Positions 1 through 38,839 of a stretch of 44,235 bases of DNA are shown one piece after another. A program made the position numbers and the translations under genes. The notes under the pieces are model-generated. The model was not told where the DNA came from. It made no database searches and saw nothing but the letters and a program-made list of their open reading frames with translations. The stretch spans positions 1 through 44,235 of the IMG/VR virus record IMGVR_UViG_3300030107_002542; one strand, written 5' to 3'. How positions within the stretch are numbered: position 1 is the stretch's first letter; each line of letters starts with the position of its first letter. The stretch comes from a virus.

Positions 1-44
1 ACCTTGTGTCCTTTACCTTCACCTCAACCTACAATAGATACCTA

Positions 45-431
45 ATGGGAGCAACCAGTAAAAACTTCAGTGAATCAGAATTAGCTTGTAGCTGCTGCGG
101 AAAGAATGAGATGACTCAGGAAACTGTGGATGCTCTGCAAGCACTCAGGGAATCCATCGGCAAACCTCTTAGATTGAGTTCAGCTTATCGCTGTCCAGAG
201 CATAATAGTAAGGTGAGTTCTACAGGAAAGTCAGGTCCACATACTACTGGAAAGGCAATTGATATTGCCTGTTCTGGAAAAGATGCATGGGAGTTACTTT
301 CCTTTGCAATGATCCGTTCAAAGGTTTGGAAAGGAATCGGAGTTAGTCAAAAAGGAAAACCACACAGTTCCAGATTCATACATTTGGACACAATCGAAGC
401 AGACAACAGACCTTGGATATGGAGTTATTAA
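45..431 (+). CDS. M15-family peptidase (phage endolysin)
   Basis: 128 aa from ATG 45. The protein resembles peptidase M15_3 zinc D-Ala-D-Ala carboxypeptidase-type endolysins, which cut cell-wall peptide cross-links. It opens with the typical phage lysin start MGATSKNFSESELAC. It then shows SSAYRCPEHN, the zinc motif HTTGKAIDIA (His and Asp ligands), a late FIHLD (third ligand) and the closing RPWIWSY. The reading frame stays open upstream to the window edge and holds a GTG at 6. The ATG at 45 lacks a visible Shine-Dalgarno, unlike most genes here. A stop in another frame overlaps this ATG (TAATG), so coupling to a previous gene is possible. Alternatively it is the C-terminal domain of a longer protein (see findings). 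The family call is firm; the true N-terminus is not. Confidence 0.85.
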   Translation: MGATSKNFSESELACSCCGKNEMTQETVDALQALRESIGKPLRLSSAYRCPEHNSKVSSTGKSGPHTTGKAIDIACSGKDAWELLSFAMIRSKVWKGIGVSQKGKPHSSRFIHLDTIEADNRPWIWSY

Positions 432-463
432 AATGAAAAAGAAAAAGAAAAGAAAATACTAAG

Positions 464-832
464 ATGAGAAAAAAATGGGAAATAGGTAGAGGCCAGCCCG
501 AAAGAGGTGGGATGCAGGGACTTATCGACAGGATTGGAGGTGCTGGTGGGTATGGAGGCCCAAGAAGTAGGTTAAAGATTAAAAAGAAAAAAGAACAAGA
601 AGTTGATGAGAGTCCTAGAGATCCAAAAGTAACTGAAAGATTCTTAGAAGATCATGGATATACACCAGCTACATCATCAAGTAAACAACCTAATACTTAT
701 GAGAAACTTACTGATGGAGGAAAATATAGAATCTACACAGGCACTCGTACTTCATCAGGAAAAACAGGAGTCTCTCAAAATACTATGAAAAATCCTTCAC
801 TTAAAGAACTTATGATTTGGATGGGATACTAA
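464..832 (+). CDS. Hypothetical protein, 122 aa
   Basis: I do not recognise this protein. The N-terminal half is basic and glycine-rich (GGAGGYGGPRSRLK, then a lysine run KIKKKKEQE). The C-terminal half is polar (YEKLTDGGKYRIYTG) and ends in the aromatic LMIWMGY. There is no signal peptide or membrane segment. It lies between the lysin and the probable small terminase and stops one base before the next ATG, so it is probably co-transcribed with the packaging genes. A nucleic-acid-binding role would suit the basic stretch, but that is a guess. Confidence 0.7.
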   Translation: MRKKWEIGRGQPERGGMQGLIDRIGGAGGYGGPRSRLKIKKKKEQEVDESPRDPKVTERFLEDHGYTPATSSSKQPNTYEKLTDGGKYRIYTGTRTSSGKTGVSQNTMKNPSLKELMIWMGY

Positions 833-833
833 A

Positions 834-1067
834 ATGGAAAATACAGAAAAACTAAATACTCTCTTCGATGCAGTTACCGAAGAACTCCTAGTGAAAATAA
901 AATCTGGAGAAGCAAAACCAGCAGACCTGGCAGTAGCTGTAAAGTTCCTAAAAGATAATAATATATCCTGTGTACCAACAGATTCTAACTCTTTTGGAGA
1001 ACTTATTAAAAATATGCCATTTATGGAAGAAGATAAGCAAAAATTCAATTCTTTCCAGAAAAACTGA
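834..1067 (+). CDS. Probable small terminase subunit (TerS, gp18-like)
   Basis: 77 aa, directly upstream of the large terminase, the position and size class of T7 gp18 (89 aa). The N-terminal part (LFDAVTEELLVKIKSGEAKP, then LAVAVKFLKDNNISCVP) reads as helices of the kind seen in small terminases of marine T7-like phages, which recognise phage DNA and load the motor. The C-terminus is charged. The call rests on position, size and this helical pattern; no catalytic motif exists to confirm it. It starts two bases after the previous stop. Confidence 0.6.
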   Translation: MENTEKLNTLFDAVTEELLVKIKSGEAKPADLAVAVKFLKDNNISCVPTDSNSFGELIKNMPFMEEDKQKFNSFQKN

Positions 1068-1195
1068 AAAAACAACCTCTCAGATCTCTCTGTACGAGCC
1101 TTTTATTGACCCACGAGGGTCATAGCATTCATTTATAGTCTCATTTTACTACAGAGAGTTCTAATATCCTTCATAACAATTTACCCTAAATTCCT
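1068..1195 (+). other. TerS-TerL intergenic region with nested inverted repeats
   Basis: 128 bp without a gene. An outer perfect 9-bp inverted repeat (CTCTCTGTA 1086-1094, TACAGAGAG 1150-1158) encloses an inner perfect hairpin (TGACCC 1107-1112, loop ACGA, GGGTCA 1117-1122). No T-run follows, so a classical intrinsic terminator is not supported. It could be an RNA processing or translation-control structure, or part of a packaging recognition site. Confidence 0.5.
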
Positions 1196-2866
1196 ATGGC
1201 AGAACAGAAAAATCCTCTCTTGGATTTTAGAAACTTCCTGTTCTTAGTCTGGGAACATCTTTCCCTCCCTAATCCTACTCCTGTCCAATACGATATTGCT
1301 GACTATTTACAACATGCTCCAAAAAGAGCAGTCATTGAAGCATTTCGAGGAGTTGGAAAATCTTATATCACTTCCGCATTTGTTTGCTGGAAGTTACTAC
1401 TCGATCCTGAGACTAAAGTTTTAGTTGTCTCAGCAAGTAAAGTGAGGTCTGATGACTTCTCTACTTTTACTCAAAGATTAATAAACGAGTTACCAATTCT
1501 ACATCACCTCAAATCACGAGAGAACCAACGTCAAAGTAAAGTTGCTTTTGATGTCGGACCTACCACAGCTTCCCATAGTCCTTCGGTTAAGTCAGTTGGG
1601 ATTACAGGACAGCTTAGTGGATCTCGTGCAGACATAATCGTAGCTGATGACGTTGAAGTTCCTAACAACTCAATGACTCAGACTATGCGAGATAAACTTT
1701 CAGAAGCAGTTAAAGAGTTTGATGCTGTATTAAAACCAGATGGCAGTATTGTCTATCTTGGTACACCACAGACAGAAATGAGTCTTTATGAAACACTTCC
1801 TGAAAGAGGTTATGAAGTTCGTATCTGGCCCAGTAGATATCCCGATGAAAAGCAAGTTATTCGGTATTCCAATAAACTGGCTCCATTTATTCAAGACCAT
1901 CTTGATCGTGGTTCTGTTGTTGGAGATCCTACTGATCCATTACGTTTCGATGCCGAAGACCTATTGGAACGAGAATTATCCTATGGACGATCAGGTTTCG
2001 CACTTCAATTCCAGTTAGATACTTCACTCTCAGATGCAGATAAATATCCTTTAAAACTATCTGATCTCATCATAATGAGTGTAGATTCTACTAAAGCTCC
2101 TGAAAAACCTATATGGGCAAAAGATCCAAGAAATAAACTGACTGATCTACCCAATGTAGGACTTCCAGGAGATTTCTTCTACAGTCCAGAGACTAAACTT
2201 GGTGATTGGCTTGAGTACTCTGGTTCTGTTCTCTCAATTGACCCTTCAGGGAGGGGTAAAGATGAAACTGGGTATGCAGTAGTAAAGATGTTAAATGGTT
2301 TCCTGTATGTCTCAGAGTGTGGAGGACTTAGAGGAGGATATAAAGATACTAACCTTCAGACACTCTCAGTAATAGCAAAAAAGAACAACGTAAACCTCAT
2401 CCTCATTGAATCTAACTTTGGAGATGGGATGTTCATGGAACTACTCAAACCAGTTCTTCGGAAGATTCACAATGTAACTATAGAGGAAATAAGGAGTAAT
2501 GTTCAAAAAGAAAAGAGAATCATAGACACTCTAGAGCCAGTAATGAATCAGCATCGTCTCGTGATTGATCCAAAGGTAGTTGAGAAGGATTATGATACGG
2601 TCCAAGACTATCCAATAGAGACACAAGCTCGTTATATGCTCTTTCACCAGATGACAAGGATCACTAAGGACAGAGGAGCACTTATTCACGATGATAGGCT
2701 TGATGCACTCACAATGGCAGTACAATATTGGGTTAACTTCATGGCAGCGGATGCAGAGGTAGAAATAAATACTAGAAGAAATGAACTGATGGATATGGAA
2801 CTGGAGAAGTTTATGGATGGAGTCTTTAATAAACCTCAGAGGGATGCCGCTATGACATGGATGTAA
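1196..2866 (+). CDS. Large terminase subunit (TerL, gp19-like)
   Basis: 556 aa (T7 gp19 is 586 aa). This is the packaging motor ATPase and headful/concatemer nuclease that docks on the portal. The ATPase domain shows a Walker A-like AFRGVGKS (about 49-56), Walker B ADIIVADDVE (about 145-154) and a coupling motif YLGTPQ (about 187-192). The C-terminal RNase H-like nuclease shows SIDPSGRGKDETGY (about 347-360), LILIESNFGDG (about 401-411) and HDDRLDAL (about 498-505), which supply the acidic metal ligands. The gene appears intact. It is separated from the probable TerS by a structured 128-bp spacer and overlaps the next small gene by 10 bases. Confidence 0.95.
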   Translation: MAEQKNPLLDFRNFLFLVWEHLSLPNPTPVQYDIADYLQHAPKRAVIEAFRGVGKSYITSAFVCWKLLLDPETKVLVVSASKVRSDDFSTFTQRLINELPILHHLKSRENQRQSKVAFDVGPTTASHSPSVKSVGITGQLSGSRADIIVADDVEVPNNSMTQTMRDKLSEAVKEFDAVLKPDGSIVYLGTPQTEMSLYETLPERGYEVRIWPSRYPDEKQVIRYSNKLAPFIQDHLDRGSVVGDPTDPLRFDAEDLLERELSYGRSGFALQFQLDTSLSDADKYPLKLSDLIIMSVDSTKAPEKPIWAKDPRNKLTDLPNVGLPGDFFYSPETKLGDWLEYSGSVLSIDPSGRGKDETGYAVVKMLNGFLYVSECGGLRGGYKDTNLQTLSVIAKKNNVNLILIESNFGDGMFMELLKPVLRKIHNVTIEEIRSNVQKEKRIIDTLEPVMNQHRLVIDPKVVEKDYDTVQDYPIETQARYMLFHQMTRITKDRGALIHDDRLDALTMAVQYWVNFMAADAEVEINTRRNELMDMELEKFMDGVFNKPQRDAAMTWM

Positions 2867-2994
2867 AGAAAGATGTCGTAAGAACGACACTAAGGTACAA
2901 GACAACCGATGGGTATACTGGGAGTATAGTGAGGGTTTTACGGAGGGATTCTGAGGAGTTGAAATATTTAAAGAAAAAATCTGAGAAGGTATAA
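2857..2994 (+). CDS. Small basic protein overlapping the TerL end
   Basis: 45 aa in a different frame from TerL, starting MDVKKDVVRTTLRYK and ending KKKSEKV. The composition is protein-like: alternating polar and hydrophobic residues in the first half (a likely beta pair around DGYTGSIVRVL) and a lysine/glutamate helix at the end. It starts 10 bases inside the terminase end, a common phage coupling arrangement. A GAGGG lies upstream at longer than usual spacing. A 6-bp hairpin (TGTCGT 2874-2879, ACGACA 2884-2889) lies inside it. Function unknown. Confidence 0.45.
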   Translation: MDVKKDVVRTTLRYKTTDGYTGSIVRVLRRDSEELKYLKKKSEKV

Positions 2995-3319
2995 AAACGA
3001 GACGTTCAAGGTTTTACCCCATTCACTTTTTTTTATTCCATTTTATAGCAAAATATGGATTTTTTTATTTTTTAGCTGTATAGACACAGATTTAGTCACA
3101 ATGAATTTTTAAAAATGCAATTTATCACAATAGCAATAGATAAAAAAACTATTTCAATTCATATAATTTAACTTTTTCTTTTTTTTGATTCGTTTTGACT
3201 GTCTTTTTTATTTGTCTGTTTGTGTCTTTTTTATCTATCGCTTTTTTTCAATTTCATTTTTTGCACGTCTAATTAAGTACATTCATTAATACTTAACCAT
3301 TAAGAGGAGTTTAATTATT
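2995..3319 (+). other. AT-rich non-coding region before the early genes
   Basis: 325 bp with no credible gene. It is dominated by T-tracts on this strand (for example near 3027, 3061, 3177, 3204, 3228 and 3242). A 12-bp direct repeat TGTCTTTTTTAT occurs at 3200-3211 and 3223-3234. A TATAAT hexamer at 3162-3167 lacks a good -35. It lies between the packaging genes and the first early gene, where T7-like phages usually have their molecular left end and terminal repeat. I see no sequence proof of an end here. Confidence 0.5.
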
Positions 3320-3445
3320 ATGTTTAATAGAATACTAACAATGCTATTTGAAAGAATACTACCTATAATATGCGTCGGCTATGGTTTCATTGTATGTTTA
3401 GTTCAAATAATTATGTTATTGTCACAAAATCCAATATTTAATTAA
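3320..3445 (+). CDS. Small membrane peptide, 41 aa
   Basis: ATG at 3320 with Shine-Dalgarno AGAGGAG about ten bases upstream. The first ten residues include two basic residues, followed by a hydrophobic stretch (LPIICVGYGFIVCLVQIIMLL) long enough to span the membrane, then a short polar tail. It is the first gene after the AT-rich region, so probably early expressed. No family recognised. It could be one of the anti-host membrane peptides common at the left end of T7-like phages, or a small holin-like protein; neither can be shown here. Confidence 0.55.
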   Translation: MFNRILTMLFERILPIICVGYGFIVCLVQIIMLLSQNPIFN

Positions 3446-3562
3446 TTGGCATTGATCTTGTATTATTATCAATTATGAAACAAATTAGATAAAAAATGGG
3501 TAAAAATTACCGCTTGTAATGCCTTGCAATTACTGCAATCTTGCATTTAATTAATTTTTTAT

Positions 3563-3592
3563 TTGACAAATTGTTTCATTTTCGATTATAAT
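3563..3592 (+). promoter_or_regulatory. Consensus sigma70 early promoter
   Basis: Perfect -35 TTGACA at 3563-3568 and perfect -10 TATAAT at 3587-3592, with an 18-bp spacer. Transcription would begin near 3599 and run into the 43-aa gene at 3774 and the genes after it. It sits in the 328-bp stretch 3446-3773, which otherwise has no gene. That stretch also holds small hairpins (GGTAA/TTACC near 3500; TGATT/AATCA near 3622; AAGTC 3688-3692 with GACTT 3698-3702). It is the strongest host-type promoter I can see in the window. Confidence 0.8.
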
Positions 3593-3773
3593 TGTTAGCA
3601 CGATGATTGAGTTGATTATTTGAATCACTTTAAATAGTAGAACATAATTAAACAATACATTATCTAGTTAATTCTTGAAACGCAGATAAGTCAATACGAC
3701 TTTGCAGAATATGAGAGTAATTAGCGAACTAACAAAGAGGATTTCAGTAAAACATATCTAAAGAGGATATAAA

Positions 3774-3905
3774 ATGCATACAATATATAAACTTGGATTA
3801 TATTTCCTATTATCAATGGGAACTATTGCAACTTGTATGATTAGCGCATTTTTTGGCGCATGGTTGAAACTTGGAGATAAAATCTTTTTAGCTCCATTAT
3901 TCTAA
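3774..3905 (+). CDS. Small membrane peptide, 43 aa
   Basis: ATG at 3774 with AAAGAGGAT upstream. The short N-terminus (MHTIYK) is followed by a hydrophobic segment (LGLYFLLSMGTIATCMISAF) and an amphipathic end (WLKLGDKIFLAPLF). This is a probable single-pass inner-membrane peptide. It is the first gene downstream of the consensus promoter at 3563-3592, so likely among the earliest and strongest transcripts. Family not recognised. Confidence 0.55.
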   Translation: MHTIYKLGLYFLLSMGTIATCMISAFFGAWLKLGDKIFLAPLF

Positions 3906-3921
3906 AAACTAAGTTTTAATC

Positions 3922-3971
3922 CGTACCAATTTAGTACTACTTGGTAAATCCAAGCAGCATGGATAGGTACG
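3922..3971 (+). promoter_or_regulatory. Two-stem hairpin in the leader of the 3992 gene
   Basis: Outer stem CGTACC (3922-3927) pairs with GGTACG (3966-3971). Inside it CTTGG (3940-3944) pairs with CCAAG (3950-3954) across a TAAAT loop. The structure ends about ten bases before the GGAGAAC ribosome-binding site of the gene at 3992. It could be a translation-control leader or an RNase III site. Confidence 0.4.
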
Positions 3972-3991
3972 CCTAAAAAAGGAGAACTAAA

Positions 3992-4168
3992 ATGAGTGAA
4001 TTAAAAACTAATCAAGAATGGATTGAAAGTAGTGTTTTAATTAGGAACACAAAACAGTTTATGAATCAAAAACGCTATCCATTAAACAAAGCTTTCAAAA
4101 AGCATAATGGAGTTTGCAAAGTATACACAAAAGCTCAGATTTTAGCATTTCAGAATAACTTGGCTTAA
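3992..4168 (+). CDS. Hypothetical small basic protein, 58 aa
   Basis: ATG at 3992 with the clear Shine-Dalgarno GGAGAACT. The protein is soluble and basic (MSELKTNQEWIESSVLIRNT, then KQFMNQKRYP and KAFKKHNG) and ends AQILAFQNNLA. It has no cysteine pair or membrane segment. The size and charge suit a nucleic-acid or host-enzyme-binding early protein, but no family is recognised. Confidence 0.55.
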   Translation: MSELKTNQEWIESSVLIRNTKQFMNQKRYPLNKAFKKHNGVCKVYTKAQILAFQNNLA

Positions 4169-4195
4169 TAATAGCATTAATGTAAATATTACATT

Positions 4196-4201
4196 TATAA
4201 T
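4196..4201 (+). promoter_or_regulatory. Possible promoter -10 (TATAAT)
   Basis: A perfect TATAAT at 4196-4201 directly follows a tight hairpin (AATGTAA 4179-4185, loop ATA, TTACATT 4189-4195). No good -35 is at the right distance. A start about 7 bases downstream would place the RNA 5' end at the base of the structured element at 4205, which is the main reason to note it. Confidence 0.4.
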
Positions 4202-4204
4202 ATT

Positions 4205-4334
4205 AATCTGACTTATTTATATAAAAGTATTCATGGTGCATTTATATTTCCAATTTCGTAACCGTTAATAAAAAGTTCTTTGTTGTAGTGAGATTTATTA
4301 GCAGGGACTACAAGCAATTGGAGTAAGTCAGATT
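4205..4334 (+). promoter_or_regulatory. Multi-helix structured leader or ncRNA candidate
   Basis: Four properly nested helices, all perfect Watson-Crick. P1 is 4205-4215 with 4324-4334 (11 bp, AATCTGACTTA / TAAGTCAGATT). P2 is 4219-4225 with 4241-4247 (ATATAAA / TTTATAT). P3 is 4249-4255 with 4316-4322 (TCCAATT / AATTGGA). P4 is 4283-4289 with 4307-4313 (TTGTAGT / ACTACAA). P1, P2 and P3 form a three-way junction, and P4 caps P3 across an asymmetric internal loop. No T-run follows; a Shine-Dalgarno and ATG come 20-30 bases later. A 5' leader regulator of the 4361 operon is therefore more likely than a terminated sRNA. It matches no class I know. Confidence 0.5.
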
Positions 4335-4336
4335 AT

Positions 4337-4358
4337 TAATCTAAAACTAAAGAGGATA
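4337..4358 (+). repeat. 22-bp direct repeat, copy 1 (ribosome-binding leader)
   Basis: The 22 bases here recur exactly at 4870-4891. Both copies end in the Shine-Dalgarno AAAGAGGATA and sit just before an ATG (4361 and 4893). This copy lies directly after the structured leader. Confidence 0.7.
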
Positions 4359-4360
4359 AT

Positions 4361-8206: not shown

Positions 8207-8578
8207 ATGAAACGAAGATCAGAATTACAAACACTTGTAAAAGCACTCAAACTGTTTCAAACATTGGACACAGAGATGCAGATACCTACTATGTTGACTC
8301 TTCTTGAGTTGGCAATGTGGGACGATAACGAATCACCAAGTGTTTCTGCATTAGGTAAGAAGATAGGTACAAAAACTTCAGCTACCGCAGGGTCTAGGAA
8401 CGTCATGGCATGGTGCGAAAATAACCGTACCAGAGAAAAAGGGTATGATATGATGGAGACTAAAGAGAATCCTACATATCGTGTCGAAAAGCTAGTGTCT
8501 CTAAAAGCAAAAGGTTATGCATTTGCTGATGCACTCGTGGACATAATGAACAACAAAAAGGAGAACAATGCCAATTAA
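8207..8578 (+). CDS. Winged-helix DNA-binding-like protein next to the integrase
   Basis: 123 aa. A first helix region (LVKALKLFQTLDTEMQIPTM) is followed by LLELAMWDDNESPSVSALGK, a recognition-helix-like stretch (GTKTSATAGSRNVMAWCE) and a wing pattern (GYDMMETKENPTYRVEKLVS). It ends with a MarR-like LKAKGYAFADAL. The order helix-helix-helix-wing suggests a MarR/winged-helix fold. It overlaps the integrase start by 11 bases, so the two are made from one transcript. In this place it could be a recombination directionality factor or the lysogeny regulator. The fold is inferred from pattern only. Confidence 0.6.
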   Translation: MKRRSELQTLVKALKLFQTLDTEMQIPTMLTLLELAMWDDNESPSVSALGKKIGTKTSATAGSRNVMAWCENNRTREKGYDMMETKENPTYRVEKLVSLKAKGYAFADALVDIMNNKKENNAN

Positions 8579-9611
8579 AAAGAGAGGAGGTTCTTGGCAA
8601 GCCGATATCAGAGTTAAGGGTATAAGACACAGGAAAGCTTTTGAAAGCTACGATGAAGCTGAGAAGTGGCTAGAAGCTACCAAGTATCAACTTAAACATG
8701 ATATCCCAATGCCACAGGAAACCTGGAACTTAAAGAAAGCTTCAGAACAATGCATGAAGATTGAATGGGAAGGTAAAAGATCTGAGAACACTAACCGAAT
8801 CAATATCCGTAAAATTTCAGAATTCTTCGGAATCTACGATGAAAATATTGATGAATTTAAGGTAGACCATATTGACCTTGATGCAATTACTACAGAAGTG
8901 GTAGATGACTTTTACATCTGGTGCAGAGATGTTAAGAAGAATAAAAAGTCTACCATTAACAGGAAACTGGCATGTCTTTCCAAGATAATGAAGTTTGCAC
9001 ATGAAAGGGGGAGACTCAGGAAAATGCCAAAGTTCCCAAGACAAAAGGAACCACAGGGAAGGGTAAGATTTCTTACAGAAAAAGAAGAGATGCGTATACT
9101 GTCATACTTCAAGGGATATTCTCAGGATCTCTACGACTTTACAATCGTTGGACTTGATACAGGATTTCGTAGAGGAGAACTACTTAATCTCGAAACTAGG
9201 GATGTTGACGGAGAAAAACTTGTAATATGGGAGAACAAAACAGATGTTTCCAGATCACTTAACATGACTCCACGAGTAAAGGAAGTAATACACAGAAGAA
9301 TATCTTCAGATCCCACTGAAAAAATATTTCCATTTACCAAATATGTAGTCAGAACTGGATTTGAAAACATGAGTAAAGATTTAGGCTTTACAGATGTAAC
9401 TCCACATGTCCTCAGACATACATTCGGAACACGTTTGGCAAAGCTCAGAGTTCCCATAAAAAACATTAAAGATTTAATGGGACATAAAGTACTTAATACT
9501 TCAGAAAAATATATACATTTAGATGACTCTGATAAAGCACTAGATATGAATCTATTGGCTAAAAAGTATGGTTCATGTGACCAAACTGTGTCCAATATGG
9601 CAGTTTTGTAG
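8568..9611 (+). CDS. int: Tyrosine recombinase / phage integrase
   Basis: 347 aa with all catalytic residues: R201 (TGFRRGELL), a beta-strand K224 (WENKTDVSR), H280-x-x-R283 (PHVLRHTFGTRLA), H306 (LMGHKVLN) and the nucleophile Y315 (SEKYIHL). The N-terminal AP2-like arm-binding region (GGSWQADIRVKGIRHRKAF) and the SAM-like core-binding domain (about 70-165) are present, so it appears full length and active. It catalyses integration and excision at att sites. It ends 69 bases before the tRNA-Leu-like attP candidate, the usual integrase-attP order. The start ATG overlaps the previous gene. Confidence 0.95.
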   Translation: MPIKKRGGSWQADIRVKGIRHRKAFESYDEAEKWLEATKYQLKHDIPMPQETWNLKKASEQCMKIEWEGKRSENTNRINIRKISEFFGIYDENIDEFKVDHIDLDAITTEVVDDFYIWCRDVKKNKKSTINRKLACLSKIMKFAHERGRLRKMPKFPRQKEPQGRVRFLTEKEEMRILSYFKGYSQDLYDFTIVGLDTGFRRGELLNLETRDVDGEKLVIWENKTDVSRSLNMTPRVKEVIHRRISSDPTEKIFPFTKYVVRTGFENMSKDLGFTDVTPHVLRHTFGTRLAKLRVPIKNIKDLMGHKVLNTSEKYIHLDDSDKALDMNLLAKKYGSCDQTVSNMAVL

Positions 9612-9679
9612 TCACAAAAGCATTATATCTGCATATAGTGATTTGTTAGAAGTTATTGATATACTTAGGAAAGTTTACT

Positions 9680-9725
9680 GCGAGAGTGGTGGAACTGGTA
9701 GACACGCAAGATTTAGGATCTAGTG
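9680..9725 (+). other. attP: attP core candidate: 5' half of tRNA-Leu(UAG)
   Basis: The 46 bases match the start of a bacterial tRNA-Leu: acceptor strand GCGAGAG, D-arm TGGTGGAACTGGTAGACACG, then the anticodon stem-loop CAAGATTTAGGATCT with anticodon TAG. After that the sequence departs from any tRNA: the 3' anticodon stem reads TCTAG, giving one mismatch against CAAGA, and there is no variable arm, T-arm or acceptor 3' strand. It is therefore not a functional tRNA gene. A partial tRNA copy next to an integrase is the classic sign of a site-specific attachment site. The crossover is probably in the anticodon region. Confidence 0.8.
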
Positions 9726-9728
9726 TTT

Positions 9729-9748
9729 ATCATTGCATTAGTGTAATA
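9729..9748 (+). promoter_or_regulatory. Recurring intergenic element, attP-side copy
   Basis: ATCATTGCATTAGTGTAATA, 18 of 20 positions identical to 12556-12575 just after the RNA polymerase gene. It lies inside the att region, upstream of the polymerase operon. Confidence 0.5.
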
Positions 9749-9767
9749 TTCTCCTAAGTATTTGATA

Positions 9768-9792
9768 AATAAGCTCAATAAGTGGGCTTATT
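9768..9792 (+). other. 10-bp hairpin after the att region
   Basis: AATAAGCTCA (9768-9777) pairs with TGGGCTTATT (9783-9792), one G-T pair, around a 5-base loop. No T-run follows, so it is a weak terminator candidate at best. It may separate the integrase transcript from the polymerase operon. Confidence 0.4.
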
Positions 9793-9817: not shown

Positions 9818-9888
9818 AGGTGCATTTTTGGCTATTTTCTGCGTGTGTCCATTATGTGACCACGTTAATCTAAATATAGGAGAACATA

Positions 9889-10106: not shown

Positions 10107-12551
10107 ATGCCATCCAATATATTCGAGGAACAAAAAGATCTAGAAGAAGAGATGATAATAGCTGGTAGGAATAAATTCCAGAAAAATACCAGAGATGCTA
10201 AAGCCAAAAATAGAGAGAGTACTTCCTTTCATGGAATCCTACTCATGAAAAAAACAGTAGGTGCATTATCCAGAGCAATTGATAGGTACGTCAACGAGGA
10301 TATAGACAAACCTGGAAGATTAAAGGCTGTAGTACCTCTACTTGCTATGCTACCAAGTGATGTAACTGCTTTCATTTCTTTAAGGGTATTAATGGATGGC
10401 ATTTCACACAGTCAAAAACTAGTCAATATTTCCCACCATATTGGTCAAGCCATATCAGACCAAGTGAGGTTCAATATCTGGTCTACTACAGACAAAAAAC
10501 AGTTCAAATATTTAGCTGAAAAATTGGGGAAAGTTTCTGCATCAAGGCATTACCGAAGATACGGATTAATCAGACATGCCACATATAAAATAGGAGAGGA
10601 CGTTCCTGTGTGGTCTATGGTAGAAAGAACTCAGGTTGGAACTTGCTTAGTTGATCTTATCATCAAATCCACTGGTCTAATCAAGATGGGTAGTACCAAG
10701 AACATTGGTAAAAAATATAAGAGTTATACTCTTGTTCCTACTGAAGCTACTCTAGATATCATTCAGGAGTACATAGAAAAAGGAGAGTTATTGTCTCCAA
10801 ACTACCTTCCAATGATTACTATCCCAAGACCTTGGACTAACAATACCAATGGTGGATATCTCACTCACAGATTACCTTTTGTAAAAACCTCGCATAAAAT
10901 AAAAAAGAATGAACTGACATACTACCAGATGGACATGGAATACCAGTGTACTAATGCCCTTCAAGAAACCAAGTGGAAGATTAATGAGCCTGTCCTGAAG
11001 GTCATGGAAGAAGCATGGGAACAGGAAAGAGTCATTGGATCTATGCCAGATTACAGGGAACTTGATATCCCTCCAAGTCCCATCCCAAAAGGAGTTAGAA
11101 AGTCTCAGCTTTCTGAACCAGATCGAATCAAATTCAATAACTGGAAGAAGAATGTAACTCCAATCTACCATGAGAATATCAGTAGGAAATCCAGAATCCT
11201 CCAGTTCATTCGGACTCTTTCACTTGCAAAGAAATACAAGGAGTACGATCAGATCTATTTTCCCTACCAAGCAGATTTTCGAGGAAGAAAATACACTATA
11301 AATTCCTTCCTGACTCCACAAGGTACTGAATATGCTAAATCTTTACTGACTTTTGCTGAAGGATTACCAATAGAGAATCAAGAACAGGCCGATTGGTTGG
11401 CTATTCATGGTGCTAACTGTGCAGGAGTAGACAAAGTAAGTTTTATTGAAAGAATTCAATGGGTTCTGGACAATGAGGAACACATAATAAAAAGTGCTAA
11501 ACTAGGACTTGAGTACGATTGGTGGACTCAATTTGATGATGCTTGGCAGTTTTTCGCATTCTGCTTAGAATGGGCTGTATTGAAAGAAAAAGGATTTGGG
11601 GTACTCAGCTATCTCCCGATAGCATTAGATGGCTCTAACAATGGTTTACAGCATTATTCAGCTATGTTGAGATGTGAGATAGGAGGTAAAGCTACCAACC
11701 TTACCAAAGAAGACAATCCACAAGACATTTACCAAGAGGTTGCTGATGTGGTACTGAGGGAAACTCAGAAAGCTGCGGAAGCTGATTGTCCCATTGCAAA
11801 GAAATGGCTTAAATCAGATCTGATTAATAGAAAACTTACTAAAAGACCAGTGATGGTTGTACCCTATGGGGGTACCAGGTTCTCCTGTCAGGGTTATGTT
11901 GAGGAATATGTAGAAGAGATGCGGAGGAAAGGACATGAGTTTTCTCTTCTAGAGAATGAACATCTAAGTAAGTACACCAATTGGATTACCACTAAGGTTT
12001 GGTCTGCAATTGGTGAAGTAGTAATCTCTGCAAGGGAAGTCATGAATTGGATCAGAGATGTTTCCAAGAGACTCTCAAAGGCAGGACATCCTATCGTGTG
12101 GGTAACTCCCACAGGAATGTACATTCATCAACACTACAAAGCATTTAAGTGGAGACAGATTGAAACTACCATTGATGGTAAGTTGCTGAAGCCTGTTGTC
12201 CATGAACTGGATGAAGAAAGGATTGATAACTTCCGTTCAGTAAATGGATCAGCACCTAACTTCGTACACTCTCTGGATGCTTCAGCACTCACCTTAACCA
12301 TACACATGTGCAAGGAAGAAAACATACATGATTTTGCAATGATTCATGATTCCTACGGTACACATGCCCATAACACACCGAAGTTAGCAGAACTACTGCG
12401 TAAAGCCTTTGTTCAAATCTATACAGATCATGATGTTCTGGAGGATTACCGAAAGGCTGCATTAGAGGTTTTGGATGAAGTTCCAGAACCACCAAAGAAG
12501 GGGAATTTAGACATCACTAAGGTATTGGAGTCATCATACTTTTTTTGTTAA
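10107..12551 (+). CDS. T7-type single-subunit RNA polymerase
   Basis: 814 aa (T7 gp1 is 883). DNA-directed RNA polymerase that reads the phage middle and late genes. The palm and fingers carry YFPYQADFRGRKY (about 384-396); motif A PIALDGSNNGLQHYSAMLR with catalytic D508; motif B NRKLTKRPVMVVPYGG with K579 and Y587; and motif C FAMIHDSYGTH with D748. NFVHSLDASAL (about 718-728) matches the T7 NFVHS segment. The promoter-specificity loop (about 683-708, between WVTPTG and SAPNFVHS) is quite different from T7, so it should read a different promoter. The C-terminus ends SSYFFC where T7 ends FAFA. Ribosome site GAGGAGTTAAAT. Confidence 0.97.
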   Translation: MPSNIFEEQKDLEEEMIIAGRNKFQKNTRDAKAKNRESTSFHGILLMKKTVGALSRAIDRYVNEDIDKPGRLKAVVPLLAMLPSDVTAFISLRVLMDGISHSQKLVNISHHIGQAISDQVRFNIWSTTDKKQFKYLAEKLGKVSASRHYRRYGLIRHATYKIGEDVPVWSMVERTQVGTCLVDLIIKSTGLIKMGSTKNIGKKYKSYTLVPTEATLDIIQEYIEKGELLSPNYLPMITIPRPWTNNTNGGYLTHRLPFVKTSHKIKKNELTYYQMDMEYQCTNALQETKWKINEPVLKVMEEAWEQERVIGSMPDYRELDIPPSPIPKGVRKSQLSEPDRIKFNNWKKNVTPIYHENISRKSRILQFIRTLSLAKKYKEYDQIYFPYQADFRGRKYTINSFLTPQGTEYAKSLLTFAEGLPIENQEQADWLAIHGANCAGVDKVSFIERIQWVLDNEEHIIKSAKLGLEYDWWTQFDDAWQFFAFCLEWAVLKEKGFGVLSYLPIALDGSNNGLQHYSAMLRCEIGGKATNLTKEDNPQDIYQEVADVVLRETQKAAEADCPIAKKWLKSDLINRKLTKRPVMVVPYGGTRFSCQGYVEEYVEEMRRKGHEFSLLENEHLSKYTNWITTKVWSAIGEVVISAREVMNWIRDVSKRLSKAGHPIVWVTPTGMYIHQHYKAFKWRQIETTIDGKLLKPVVHELDEERIDNFRSVNGSAPNFVHSLDASALTLTIHMCKEENIHDFAMIHDSYGTHAHNTPKLAELLRKAFVQIYTDHDVLEDYRKAALEVLDEVPEPPKKGNLDITKVLESSYFFC

Positions 12552-13765: not shown

Positions 13766-15370
13766 ATGGAAAGTCGGTGTTTAGGACATGAACCTTGCCC
13801 AAGGTGTGGAAGTAAGGACAATCTAGCTGTCTATGATGATGGACATGCATGGTGTTTCACACCTGACTGTGGGTATCGGAGAGGAAAGGACAATATTGAA
13901 GAAGAGGAAACAGATATGAAATTAATTAAAGGGAAACCAGAAGCTTTAAAGAAGAGAGGGATCACCAAAGATACAGTAGACAAGTGGTCTTACCAAGTCG
14001 GAGAGTTCAAAGGTAAGAAAGTCCAGATAGCAAATTACAAAAAGAATGGAAAGACAGTAGCACAGAAACTCAGGTTTCCAAACAAGGACTTTCTATTTCT
14101 TGGAGATACCAAAGAAGCAGGATTGTACGGTAAACATCTTTGGGACAAAGGAAAGATGATCACAATCTGCGAAGGTGAAATAGATGCACTCTCAGTATCA
14201 CAGGCACAAGGAAACAAGTGGCCTGTAGTGAGTATTCCAACTGGTTCTGCAGGAGCAAGGAGAGCCATTCAGAACGATTTAGAATACCTCGAAAACTTTG
14301 AGTCTGTAATTCTAATGTTCGATCAGGATGATGCAGGACAAGTTGCAGTGGATGAATGTGTTCAGTTGTTCTCTCCTGGCAAGGTAAAGGTAGCTGTACT
14401 TCCACTTAAAGATCCAAACGAAATGATCCAAGCAGATCGTGGATCTGAGATTATATCTGCCATCTGGAATGCAAAGAGTTACAGACCAGATGGAATCATA
14501 GATGGTGCAGATACATGGGAATTAGTAAGCACATCTCAAAAAGCGGAGTCAGTTCCATACCCTTTCACAGGACTTAACAACCTTACCCAAGGAATTAGGA
14601 AAGGTGAGATTGTTACTATCACTGCAGGATCTGGAATTGGGAAATCTCAGATATGTAGAGAGATTGCCTATTCACTGATTCTAAAGAACCAGAGGGTAGG
14701 TTATCTGGCACTCGAAGAGAACACAAAGAGAACTGCATTAGGATTTATTGGATTGTATTTGAACAAACCAATTCACCTTCAGAACATTGAATATACTCCA
14801 GAAGAATTAAAAGAAGGGTTTGATGCAGTCTTAGGTACAGGAAATCTATTCCTCTATGACCATTGGGGAAGTATGGAAATAAACCACTTGTTCAATAAGA
14901 TTCGATACCTCGTTAAGGGAGTAGGTTGTAGTCACATTATTTTAGACCATATTACTATCATTCTCTCTGGTTTGGAAGGTGGGGATGAAAGAAGGATGTT
15001 GGACTTTGTAATGACAAAACTCAGAAGTCTTGTTGAAGAAGTTCAATGTTCACTGATCTTAGTTTCTCATCTCAGAAGACCACAGGGAGATAGAGGTCAT
15101 GAGGAAGGAGTCAGGACATCTCTTAATCAACTTAGAGGTTCACACGGAATTGCTCAATTGTCAGACATTGTAATTGGGTGTGAAAGAAACCAGCAAGATG
15201 AAGAGAATTCTGATCTTACTACAGTCAGAGTACTGAAGAACAGATGGACAGGGGAAACTGGAGTATCAGACAGTCTACATTATTCCAAGGAAACTGGAAG
15301 GATGTCAGAAACTCTCTCCAGAGAAGAACAATATGATTTTGAAAAAGAAGATAAAGAGGAGGACTTTTGA
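13766..15370 (+). CDS. Primase-helicase (gp4-like)
   Basis: 534 aa (T7 gp4A is 566). The N-terminal zinc domain has CPRCG (C11, C14) and C30 and C35. The TOPRIM primase has TICEGEIDALS (E136) and ILMFDQDDAG (D186, D188). The RecA-like hexameric helicase has Walker A AGSGIGKSQ (about 287-295), LALEENTKR, ILDHITII and SHLRRPQGDRGHEEG. It ends in an acidic tail closing with EEDF; in T7 the C-terminal Phe contacts the polymerase. It unwinds the fork and lays primers. Internal ATG 13916 (Met51, after AAGAGGAAACAGAT) would give a form without the zinc domain, like T7 gp4B. The last codons carry the ribosome site of the next gene. Confidence 0.95.
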   Translation: MESRCLGHEPCPRCGSKDNLAVYDDGHAWCFTPDCGYRRGKDNIEEEETDMKLIKGKPEALKKRGITKDTVDKWSYQVGEFKGKKVQIANYKKNGKTVAQKLRFPNKDFLFLGDTKEAGLYGKHLWDKGKMITICEGEIDALSVSQAQGNKWPVVSIPTGSAGARRAIQNDLEYLENFESVILMFDQDDAGQVAVDECVQLFSPGKVKVAVLPLKDPNEMIQADRGSEIISAIWNAKSYRPDGIIDGADTWELVSTSQKAESVPYPFTGLNNLTQGIRKGEIVTITAGSGIGKSQICREIAYSLILKNQRVGYLALEENTKRTALGFIGLYLNKPIHLQNIEYTPEELKEGFDAVLGTGNLFLYDHWGSMEINHLFNKIRYLVKGVGCSHIILDHITIILSGLEGGDERRMLDFVMTKLRSLVEEVQCSLILVSHLRRPQGDRGHEEGVRTSLNQLRGSHGIAQLSDIVIGCERNQQDEENSDLTTVRVLKNRWTGETGVSDSLHYSKETGRMSETLSREEQYDFEKEDKEEDF

Positions 15371-33799: not shown

Positions 33800-36700
33800 A
33801 TGGAACCAACAGAAAATATTCCCAAAACTGATCCGATGAGAGGTAAATCTTCTTTTGGATGGTTGGACAGAGCATTAGATCCTACTTCTAAAACTACAGA
33901 AGAGAATGAGTCTGTTAAGACTATGACTTTTGGGCCTGAACAAGATGGTAAATTCATACTAGCTCCGTCAATAAGACAAGAGACTACTCCAGAAGGAGAA
34001 AAGCACCTAGTTAAATTGGAAGATCAAGATGTCTATGACCGTGCCTTTGTGGAAGATGATTACTTACTTTTTGATACCCAAGAAGAAGCTGATCAATACA
34101 GTAAACAATTGAGTGACACTATTGATCAACTTAGAAGAGATCATAGTTACAAACAACAACTTTCACAACAGGAAAGAGATAAACAGGAAATATCTCTTAC
34201 TTCTGCATTATTACCTGATGAAGTTAGTGTCAATTATAATGGGTTGGCAACAGTGATGACAAATTTAGCAAGTCATCCTACTGCCAGTTATAAATCAATA
34301 GAAAATTTTTTAAATGCAAGAGATTCCAAAACTATAGGTTTTGATCCTGAAACTGGTCAATTTGCTGGTATGGATCTGACACGAGAGTTTCCATTATTAA
34401 AGATGTCAGGAGACGGTAGTAAACCAGTATTGTCAAAAGATAACTCGACACTATTGAAACAAATTGAACAACGGTTTCCAGTTTCTAATTCAACTCCAGG
34501 TGCAGAGTTACTGAAGGAATATCTAAGAGAAGAGATTAATGAGAAAAAACGTCCTCTTCTTCTTCCACAGGAAAGTCCTCTAGTCAGTAATTTTAAGGTT
34601 GCCGAAAGTATTAAAACCTTTGTTAAAGGATCTGCAGAAGAATCTGCAAAGGTAGTTTTAGATCTTCCTGCTATTGGAGGAAACATTGGTTATTCTGCAG
34701 GAGAAGCTATTGCAGATGCTGTTGGATTGATTGCATACACTCCTATACATCAAGTACTTACTATTGGTAATAAGATGAAGGGGATGGGACAAGAAGAAGC
34801 TGTTGCATTAGCAGATGAAGAAGCAACAGAACTAGTCCAAAAGCTATTTGATTACGGAGTATTTGCAGGAGAGAAACCTCAACCAAATTCTATGACAGGA
34901 CAATTCGCCGCACCAATGGGTGAATTTGGATTGTCTATAATGCTAGGTGGACCAATGGTAAAATGGGGTACAAAATTCATAAGTAAGTGGAAACCCATAC
35001 TTATGCATAAGGGCAACAAACCACTTACTACAGGACAAGCACTTCAACAGGCTAATAAAAAAGTAAAAGATCTTCTAGCTCCAGTAGCAGGAGGAACATT
35101 ACTCCAATCTCCTGAACATAGACTAATTCCTTTTCTGGAAGAATTAGGAGCATCAGGAGAGTGGATTGAATTTATGAAAGATTCTCCAGATGATTCTACC
35201 TTTGCAAAAAGGTATAAAGCATTTATAGATACATCCTTTGAAGCCACAGGATTAAATGCTTTTATGCCTACTCTTCTTTTGATGGGAAGAGTTGCGTATA
35301 ACTGGAGTAAACCACTAACAGATGAAGCAGTAAGTAAAGCAGGAGATATGCTTAAAACTGGATCATCATGGTGGGATAAAATTAAATATTTGGTTCCAAA
35401 AGAAGCTTCTGAAAGGGTTCCACATGCAGCTAGAAAAGCTAAACAAGAAGGAAAACTTGCAGAAATAGAAATAATTAAAGAGAGAGCAAGAACAGAAGTA
35501 CAGCAATTACTTAAAGCAGATCAAGATGGAAGTCTGCGTGGAATTATGCGTTCCAAGGGATATGATTGGGATGAGACTACTAAATCCATTGTTCCAATTA
35601 AAGCTGTTGTTCCAAAACAACCTTTAAAGGGAGGAACAACTATTGATATTCCTGGAGGGACAAGAGAACCACTTACACTTAAAGATCTCGATATAGAAGC
35701 AAAAAATAGAAAGATATCCGTCAAAGCTTTAAAAAAAGAAATTGCAGAAAAAGCGGTAAAAGATCCTGCAAACTTTGAGGGTACTACTCATGAGATATTT
35801 AATGTTGATAGGATAACCAGTGATGCAGATCGAAAAAAATATTTTGCTCAAGCTACAGATATATTTGGTTCCCTTTACAAACAAGGAACTAAAAAATGGG
35901 ATGAGACTTTTGAAGAAGCAGAAGTAGCAGAAAGACAAATAACAGCATGGATAGGTGAAGATAATATTGGCTCGTGGTTAAAGAAATTCGCTGATACATC
36001 AACGTCCTTTCCTGCCATAATGCACGCATCAAGACAGTATCTTGCATCAGAATTTAATCATTTTATAAAAGCTTCAGACAAAATAAATGCAATAAGGAAC
36101 GAAGGAAAAAGAGATATTACTAATAAAGAATATGCAGAATACTTTCTAGATTTGTTCAAGTACATGGGAGCAATGGAAGCTGATGTCAAGATTGCAGGAA
36201 ATATTGGTAGAACGCTTCAAGTCAGAAATAACATCTTAGGATCTTCGGAAGCTGTATTAGAAAAAATAATACAAGGTGCTTCAGCTTCTGGTAAATCTGG
36301 AAAAGAACATCTTATTGAAATTGCAGAAAATGCTGGTGAGATAACTGATCCTCTTCAGGCAGCTAATTTACTGAAGAGAAAAGGACCATTATACAATATT
36401 TTTGAAACTATCAAGTCAGGTGCAGTTAATGGAATGATAAGTAATATCATGACTCAATCCGCTGCAAATCTTGGGATCATGTCGTATGCCATCAATGAAA
36501 GATTTGAAAGTCTTTTTATGGCAACAATGAATACTATCTCAGGAGAATTCCGAAAAAGAACTGGTAAGACATGGTTAGGTAAAGGAGAGGGGATGACTTT
36601 TGGTGCAGTAAACGCATCAAACTTTGGATTATCTCAAGCTCTTTTGGAAACATTTGCAGGAGCACATTTTGGTAAGAGATCACCTTTAGGTTCTGCATAT

Positions 36701-38839
36701 CGAGCAGCAAAGAATCTGCAAGTAGATTCCGTAACCAAACATGAACTATCAGATCAGTTAAGAACAACTGGACAATCCATAAACTTACCTTGGGTAGGAG
36801 ATGTTGCACTTTCCAGAGGTTTAACTGCAGAAGTATTTGGAGAGTATTTGGACACTGCATTTATGAGAGGAGATATAGGATCAGTCATGAAGTTGATGGT
36901 CAATAGTGCAGGATTGATCCAAACTGCCGCAGGAAGAGCTATTGTAGCAACTGATGGTTTCTGGAGAAACATTATTGAACGAATGGAGTTACATAAACTC
37001 TCCTATATCGAAGCAACAAATATCGAAAGAAAAATTGCAGAGCAAGCAGGAGAAGCTTTAGATCCTAAAAAGGTAGAGGAAACATATATGTACATGATCA
37101 GGAATCCTGATGAAGAAATTCTTAAAAGAGCAAGGAGTGGAGCACAGATAGGATTAATGCAGGAAACTCCTAATGGGGTTCTGAGAAATGTAGAAAAGTA
37201 TAAAAATGAAACCTCAGACTTCAGGGGAGCAAAGGATTGGATTGTAACAAACAAAGACAGTCTTGCTAAAAATGTAACTCAAAGTGCGCTTAATATAGGA
37301 GAAAATGTAGTCAAAGGTGCAGTAAATATTACAGATAATACTGCAAGAACTTTTGTTGCATCCAAGTTTTCCTTCATGCGTACAATGACCAACATTTACA
37401 AACAGTACTTGTGGGAAAGAGGAATTCCTAAGTTTCTCAGGCAGCTTCACCCAGAGAATGCTAAGAGGTTCATGAGTGATGAACTGTACCGTCAGGAAAC
37501 TCTTGCAAAGATAGGATCAGGAGCAATGATTACTTCAATGGGTTACACCATAGGCAGTAAATTGGATGATCAAGGAATGGGAGGATGGTTCATAGACAAT
37601 GTACTTTCTATTCCAGAAAAAGTTATAGAGGGAGTAACTGGAGTTGAATTAACTATGGAGGGGATTGATGCTGCAGATCCTAAGACCAGACACGTTAAAC
37701 AAGTAGAAGGAACAAGAAGTCCAGAGATCATGTATAGGGATGAAAATGGAGAAGAGTACACTATGCCTTTAGACCGTTTAGATCCTTTAAAAGCTTCTAT
37801 GGCTTTAGGAGCAATCTTTGGATCATATCATGACCAATGGGAAGATGCTCTGGCATTAATGGATGATGAACAGTTACAACAGGAATCCCTAGATCGAAGA
37901 GAAGAGTTAAAAGAAAAGTTTCTATATGCACTTGGTGATTGGATTATGGATGTCCCAATGATGCAAGGAATTCAAGAATCTGCAGGGAACTTTGTTCCTG
38001 GAATCTCTCCGTATGGTCCAGATCCTCAAAGAGAAATTACAAAGTTCTTAAACAATTTCGTAAACCCTTGGGTTGCAAATTACTCAAGTCTCCGTAGAGC
38101 AGGACATAAAATTCTTCAGCCTTATAGAACAATGTCCTCAAAAGGAGAGAAGGAAATGTATGAAAAGTCAATACCAGATCCACAATACATTGATGCAAGG
38201 GGAGGACTCAGAGATGACAAAAGACCAGAAATGGTTAAGAAACGGACTTTTCTTCAGAAGATTATTGATGAATTTATAGAAGCAACAGAGAAGGTTGCTC
38301 TAATGGACAGGACTGATATTAGAAATCCAAAAGTAGGACAGGCACTATATGGGTTAGTTGGTCCTGAAGGAAATTTAGTTAAGTACCTTCCTGATACCAA
38401 AGTAGATTCAATTGCATTAGGACTTAAAACACTAGGAATTCCTGTATTTGGAAGAAAACAAGTTAGTACAAATACTTCAGATTTAATTTTAGGATTAGAA
38501 GTTAATTATGAAGATCCTAGAAAATGGAATGCAGGGCCTGGAGTTGTTCTTACACCAGAGCAAAGATATTCATGGGCTGTAGAAGCAGGAAGACTAAATA
38601 AAGAACTATTTAATGATAGTTATTTTAGTAGTCAGGTGGCTGCAATAAACAGTGGGGTTATGGATCTTCCGGAAAATAGGAGAACTAAATACAGATTACG
38701 AGATCTTGTAAAATCACAACTTATTCGTAATAAGCAACGAGCTTTGAAGTTTTTAACGAATCCTATTAAATACCCAAGAAATAAACAATTATCAGATCAA
38801 TTACGACATGCGCTTAAACAACAATCCCTTCAGAATTAA
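33800..38839 (+). CDS. Internal virion protein D (gp16-like), no lytic domain seen
   Basis: 1679 aa, the largest gene (T7 gp16 is 1318). It carries helical, partly hydrophobic segments (ESAKVVLDLPAIGGNIGYSA, NAFMPTLLLMGRVAYNW) and basic/acidic helical regions. Its C-terminal part has YLWERGIPKFLRQLHPENA and ITSMGYTIGSKLDDQGMGG. Position after gp15 and before the fibre indicates the large ejected core protein that crosses the cell envelope. T7 gp16 begins with a soluble lytic transglycosylase domain. I find no such catalytic ESR/GLMQ pattern here; the N-terminus is charged (MRGKSSFGWLDRALD). Confidence 0.8.
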   Translation: MEPTENIPKTDPMRGKSSFGWLDRALDPTSKTTEENESVKTMTFGPEQDGKFILAPSIRQETTPEGEKHLVKLEDQDVYDRAFVEDDYLLFDTQEEADQYSKQLSDTIDQLRRDHSYKQQLSQQERDKQEISLTSALLPDEVSVNYNGLATVMTNLASHPTASYKSIENFLNARDSKTIGFDPETGQFAGMDLTREFPLLKMSGDGSKPVLSKDNSTLLKQIEQRFPVSNSTPGAELLKEYLREEINEKKRPLLLPQESPLVSNFKVAESIKTFVKGSAEESAKVVLDLPAIGGNIGYSAGEAIADAVGLIAYTPIHQVLTIGNKMKGMGQEEAVALADEEATELVQKLFDYGVFAGEKPQPNSMTGQFAAPMGEFGLSIMLGGPMVKWGTKFISKWKPILMHKGNKPLTTGQALQQANKKVKDLLAPVAGGTLLQSPEHRLIPFLEELGASGEWIEFMKDSPDDSTFAKRYKAFIDTSFEATGLNAFMPTLLLMGRVAYNWSKPLTDEAVSKAGDMLKTGSSWWDKIKYLVPKEASERVPHAARKAKQEGKLAEIEIIKERARTEVQQLLKADQDGSLRGIMRSKGYDWDETTKSIVPIKAVVPKQPLKGGTTIDIPGGTREPLTLKDLDIEAKNRKISVKALKKEIAEKAVKDPANFEGTTHEIFNVDRITSDADRKKYFAQATDIFGSLYKQGTKKWDETFEEAEVAERQITAWIGEDNIGSWLKKFADTSTSFPAIMHASRQYLASEFNHFIKASDKINAIRNEGKRDITNKEYAEYFLDLFKYMGAMEADVKIAGNIGRTLQVRNNILGSSEAVLEKIIQGASASGKSGKEHLIEIAENAGEITDPLQAANLLKRKGPLYNIFETIKSGAVNGMISNIMTQSAANLGIMSYAINERFESLFMATMNTISGEFRKRTGKTWLGKGEGMTFGAVNASNFGLSQALLETFAGAHFGKRSPLGSAYRAAKNLQVDSVTKHELSDQLRTTGQSINLPWVGDVALSRGLTAEVFGEYLDTAFMRGDIGSVMKLMVNSAGLIQTAAGRAIVATDGFWRNIIERMELHKLSYIEATNIERKIAEQAGEALDPKKVEETYMYMIRNPDEEILKRARSGAQIGLMQETPNGVLRNVEKYKNETSDFRGAKDWIVTNKDSLAKNVTQSALNIGENVVKGAVNITDNTARTFVASKFSFMRTMTNIYKQYLWERGIPKFLRQLHPENAKRFMSDELYRQETLAKIGSGAMITSMGYTIGSKLDDQGMGGWFIDNVLSIPEKVIEGVTGVELTMEGIDAADPKTRHVKQVEGTRSPEIMYRDENGEEYTMPLDRLDPLKASMALGAIFGSYHDQWEDALALMDDEQLQQESLDRREELKEKFLYALGDWIMDVPMMQGIQESAGNFVPGISPYGPDPQREITKFLNNFVNPWVANYSSLRRAGHKILQPYRTMSSKGEKEMYEKSIPDPQYIDARGGLRDDKRPEMVKKRTFLQKIIDEFIEATEKVALMDRTDIRNPKVGQALYGLVGPEGNLVKYLPDTKVDSIALGLKTLGIPVFGRKQVSTNTSDLILGLEVNYEDPRKWNAGPGVVLTPEQRYSWAVEAGRLNKELFNDSYFSSQVAAINSGVMDLPENRRTKYRLRDLVKSQLIRNKQRALKFLTNPIKYPRNKQLSDQLRHALKQQSLQN

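Follow-up and report, generated by a model that had tools for sequence, protein, structure and literature searches.

A probable attachment site built on the 5' half of tRNA-Leu(UAG) in an integrase-bearing T7-like podovirus, and its link to SAR324 bacteria

The described attachment sites most like the one analyzed here are those of the T7-like cyanophages, in which the first half of a tRNA-Leu gene lies beside int and serves as attP; integration during infection has been detected by PCR and requires both int and attP, and these first-half sites function without giving stable lysogens (PMC8776855). In P-SSP7, S-TIP37 and their relatives the order is int, the first half (39–42 bp) of tRNA-Leu on the same strand, and then the RNA polymerase gene (PMC8776855); direct comparison with P-SSP7 shows the same order in the window (by which we mean the whole stretch of DNA analyzed, a virus record of 44,235 bp). 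The cyanophage sites differ in that their hosts are cyanobacteria and their integrases are distant from that of the window, and the arm repeats of P-SSP7 (candidate ATATCTAGCG at -133/+114) have another sequence. The pelagiphages HTVC011P, HTVC025P and uv-Fonsiphage-EPL are likewise T7-like, target tRNA-Leu(TAG) and have their site between int and the RNA polymerase gene, but phages of the HTVC011P group bring a whole replacement tRNA-Leu (checked here for HTVC011P), whereas the window carries the 5' half only (PMC6811365). The temperate T7-like phages LUZ100, RHEph01, RHEph21, ProddE and HTVC200P share the regulator-integrase-polymerase module, with integrases 30–35% identical to the window's, but have a tRNA-Leu sequence, whole or 3' half, upstream of int on the other strand. 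Desulfovibrio phage ProddE (L106:3465-3515), for example, has, immediately upstream of int, a tRNA-Leu 3' half in minus-strand orientation, an opposite attP layout joined to a related integrase module. Among chromosomal tRNA islands, 159 of the 3,919 in the Islander survey leave a 5' fragment, so this orientation is a known minority; that survey covers chromosomes and mostly the 3' type, while the window is a virus contig, but in its 5'-fragment islands it is the 5' part of the host gene that is displaced, which is also the prediction for the window (PMC4383910). Finally, the tRNA-dependent lysogeny described for actinobacteriophages (PMC10865867) has a short core and needs a complete phage tRNA that replaces the split host gene, whereas ARAGORN and Rfam searches found no complete tRNA and no Rfam family anywhere in the window.

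The virus is marine and, judged by PHROGs gene matches, an integrase-bearing podovirus of the T7-like type, with genes for RNA polymerase, primase/helicase, head-tail adaptor, major head protein and large terminase. An endolysin-like peptidase and the large terminase precede the early genes (positions 1-4360, with no called frame at 2906-4360), so the ends of the record do not seem to be those of the phage. A 1679-amino-acid frame without a PHROGs match lies among the structural genes at 33800-38839. The apparent lysogeny module reads rightward on the plus strand. Its first gene (8207-8578) encodes a helix-turn-helix transcriptional regulator in a MarR-like position (phrog_9665, E 6e-13) and is followed by the gene for a tyrosine integrase of 347 amino acids (8568-9611; phrog_1, E 2e-51; PF00589, E 9e-21), the putative attP, and, as its right neighbor, the T7-type RNA polymerase gene (10107-12551; phrog_414, E 6e-242). 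A sequence-only reading of this DNA had placed the site shortly after a complete integrase gene; the two do adjoin, with 68 nucleotides between them (9612-9679) rather than the 69 claimed.

The attP core, GCGAGAGTGGTGGAACTGGTAGACACGCAAGATTTAGGATCT, occupies 9680-9721 on the plus strand and corresponds to nucleotides 1–42 of tRNA-Leu(UAG), with the anticodon at 9714-9716 and its loop, the likely place of crossover, at 9712-9718. That reading had seen 46 bases resembling tRNA-Leu from the start of the acceptor to the anticodon stem, with one mismatched pair in the 3' stem strand, and both observations hold: 45 of the 46 bases agree with a SAR324 tRNA-Leu(UAG) gene, the first 42 of them exactly, and the single difference is an A for T at 9722 that breaks an anticodon-stem pair. 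The GTG after it matches, and then the resemblance ends. On the other side the exact run extends to 45 by three chance upstream matches (ACT), and identity ends three bases before nucleotide 1. Since identity is confined to the tRNA and three flanking bases, it is the half tRNA that has been conserved, which fits a copy whose task is to restore a tRNA. No clear sigma-70 promoter was found between int and the tRNA half, where the promoter scan was at chance level.

The core lies between two pairs of direct repeats of TGTGNCCA that the sequence-only reading had overlooked. A repeat search places one pair at 9576 and 9587 (9576-9594, within the 3' end of int) and the other at 9844 and 9855 (9844-9862), that is, counted from the first anticodon base, at -138/-127 and +130/+141; the spacing is 11 bp within both pairs. 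Four of the eight copies in the 44 kb flank the core in this way, and these four are the only plus-strand copies. Taken over stretches of 300 bp, clusters of four gapped 8-mers of this kind number four in the window, against 0–2 per shuffled window, so the count alone is suggestive; the argument for arm sites comes from the symmetric placement round the core and from the recurrence of analogous repeats on both sides of the core in relatives (below). From its sequence, then, the site appears to be built like a λ-type attP, with the TGTGNCCA repeats as putative arm-type sites that the integrase would bind, here called the P-arm (left) and P'-arm (right).

The 10-bp inverted repeats to which a role in the att site had been assigned, ATACTTAGGA at 9661-9670 and TCCTAAGTAT at 9752-9761 (both given on the plus strand), are indeed exact, but they stand out only mildly (p about 0.013 by shuffling, and of 451 places in this genome 3 match as well), and none of five related viral contigs has such a 10-bp stem. 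We rejected them as integrase sites on this lack of conservation in related phages.

The bacterial tRNA-Leu(TAG) gene that was predicted to share this segment exists. Among 84,980 species genomes the 42-mer has an exact match in one, a metagenome-assembled genome of the SAR324 cluster, where it sits in a genuine tRNA-Leu(UAG) gene on the minus strand (L001:2518-2602). SAR324 bacteria are found widely in the ocean, and most have not been cultured. Twenty of the 52 genomes of this phylum come within three mismatches of the 42-mer, one of them exactly and three with one mismatch. When the junctions are simulated, phage nucleotides 1–36 joined to the host 3' part give a complete tRNA-Leu with exactly the host's sequence, so that the core, which matches part of that gene, is able to restore it; the reciprocal junction yields no tRNA. 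No integrated copy of this phage was found, nor did the 52 SAR324 genomes contain a full-length relative of its RNA polymerase, and a narrow search of open-licence papers gave no literature linking a T7-like phage to SAR324.

The SAR324 genome G018 does, however, carry the insertion scar of a relative. Its contig C18 has a 2.6-kb element (L094:12480-15126) with homologues of the window's regulator (65% identical) and integrase (50%) and a 237-amino-acid frame of the N-terminal part of a T7-like RNA polymerase (58% identical to residues 4–228 of the window's), and its att sites are intact. The element is flanked by two identical 45-bp 5' halves of tRNA-Ser(CGA), at 12480-12524 and 15082-15126, 2,602 bp apart. 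Host DNA precedes the upstream copy, which opens onto the polymerase region and is the orphan half (attL); int precedes the downstream copy, which runs on into a whole tRNA-Ser (attR). An empty tRNA-Ser site with the same upstream flank is present in a related genome, G012. TGTG-type repeats lie at the expected arm positions of the remnant, 12637/12647 and 14990/15000. This layout implies that the phage donates the 5' half and that crossover takes place at the anticodon, and it bears out, for a tRNA-Ser, the proposal that a phage 5' half and a host 3' half make an intact tRNA downstream of int. These attL and attR sites belong to a relative whose integrase is only 50% identical, and none was seen for the phage of the window. 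The element itself might be what a deletion has left behind, or else a mobile element of small size.

Prophages in two further genomes, G053 and G054, were considered as copies of the 5'-half scheme and rejected. The G054 prophage, which is T7-like and lies in a tRNA-Leu(UAG) gene (L012:8097-8138, L080:5424-5576), instead has a short core of about 13 bp and its own whole tRNA-Leu, and it leaves an orphan host 3' half ahead of trigger factor, an arrangement that looks like tRNA-dependent lysogeny.

The layout of the window's site recurs in other viruses. The integrase used as sole query found no relatives among the viral contigs, nor did the exact 46-mer have a match there, but a degenerate tRNA pattern gave 37 loci. 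In five of these contigs (L006, L013, L025, L028 and L033) int is followed by a 44-nucleotide 5' half of tRNA-Leu(UAG) and then by the RNA polymerase gene, and none of the five has a whole tRNA-Leu. Their halves are identical to the form found in the SAR324 genomes G015, G024 and G039, and each contig has TGTGG repeats at about -106, -94 and -84 and at +122 and +134. The integrases of four of the five are 35–36% identical to the window's over most of the latter's length, while that of L025 aligns over a short stretch. Another contig, L042, has an RNA polymerase 68% identical to the window's and lacks int as well as the tRNA half, which suggests that these two are gained or lost as a unit. Most forks of an integrase tree, built on the question of a shared origin of the 5'-half integrases, did not separate.

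These data support the attP reading through the matching SAR324 tRNA, the arm-type repeats, the five contigs with the same layout and the attL and attR of a relative, and we consider it highly probable that the segment is the attP of this integrase-bearing T7-like podovirus, with a core that copies nucleotides 1–42 of the host tRNA-Leu(UAG) between two pairs of arm sites. Other origins for the tRNA half have to be weighed against it. It might be a decayed phage tRNA-Leu gene, or a 5' half picked up in an imprecise excision, that plays no part in integration today, and the whole tRNA-Leu genes near int in the family phages LUZ100, RHEph01, Pasto, HTVC200P and HTVC011P are in keeping with such a history. 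Decay, however, would not keep identity with the host over exactly nucleotides 1–42, nor would five other phages and the SAR324 remnant then share the same end point, and the core is flanked by arm repeats; we regard this origin as very improbable. Even harder to credit is that the segment is a structured RNA or a processing signal between int and the polymerase gene (an RNase III site, for example) that is partly tRNA sequence and is closed by the inverted repeats. As RNA, 9655-9770 does fold better than all of 200 shuffles (z -4.5), with the inverted repeat as its closing stem; yet that stem is missing from the five relatives, the core pairs with downstream DNA in the window no better than chance would allow (p 0.07) and not at all in P-SSP7, and the identity with a SAR324 tRNA would be left unexplained. 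A general RNA hairpin of core and downstream DNA was also rejected; such pairing is significant in the L013/L028/L033 lineage and weakly so in L006 (p 0.03), and is not general. An RNA structure and an attP at the same site could in any case be compatible.

A different doubt leaves the attP reading intact and concerns the host, which might be another lineage with the same tRNA-Leu 5' half, outside the genome set. The exact match comes from a single SAR324 genome, tRNA genes are conserved, and tRNA matches give only a broad host assignment (PMC3861242). Against this, near-exact matches recur across the SAR324 phylum, and the G018 remnant carries int, the regulator and the start of an RNA polymerase that is 58% identical to the window's, as against 37% for the best named phage. 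We therefore think another host unlikely, and SAR324 bacteria the probable one.

If the site is an attP of this kind, the integrase would pair it with the host tRNA gene as attB, and strands would be exchanged in the shared anticodon-loop region. At the integrase-side junction, phage nucleotides 1 to about 36 would be joined to the host 3' half, giving a tRNA identical to the host's that would be read from upstream phage DNA, presumably by a phage promoter. The reciprocal junction would leave the host's own promoter and 5' half as an orphan before the phage RNA polymerase region. A broader and more tentative proposal, for which we consider the case nearly balanced, is that a hitherto undescribed set of T7-like viruses that integrate in the SAR324 phylum changes its target tRNA gene (Leu-UAG, Ser-CGA) by exchanging the 5' half within attP, with the regulator-integrase-polymerase module and the TGTG arm pattern left as they are, so that each integration would put a host tRNA under a phage promoter.

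The first-half tRNA-Leu attP is already known from the T7-like cyanophages; what is new here is the link to a SAR324 host and the insertion scar in a SAR324 genome. The att site offers a specific host link, and the SAR324 remnant shows what the junctions look like in the less common kind of tRNA integration, that through a 5' half. The finding is also a further sign that not every T7-like phage is strictly lytic.
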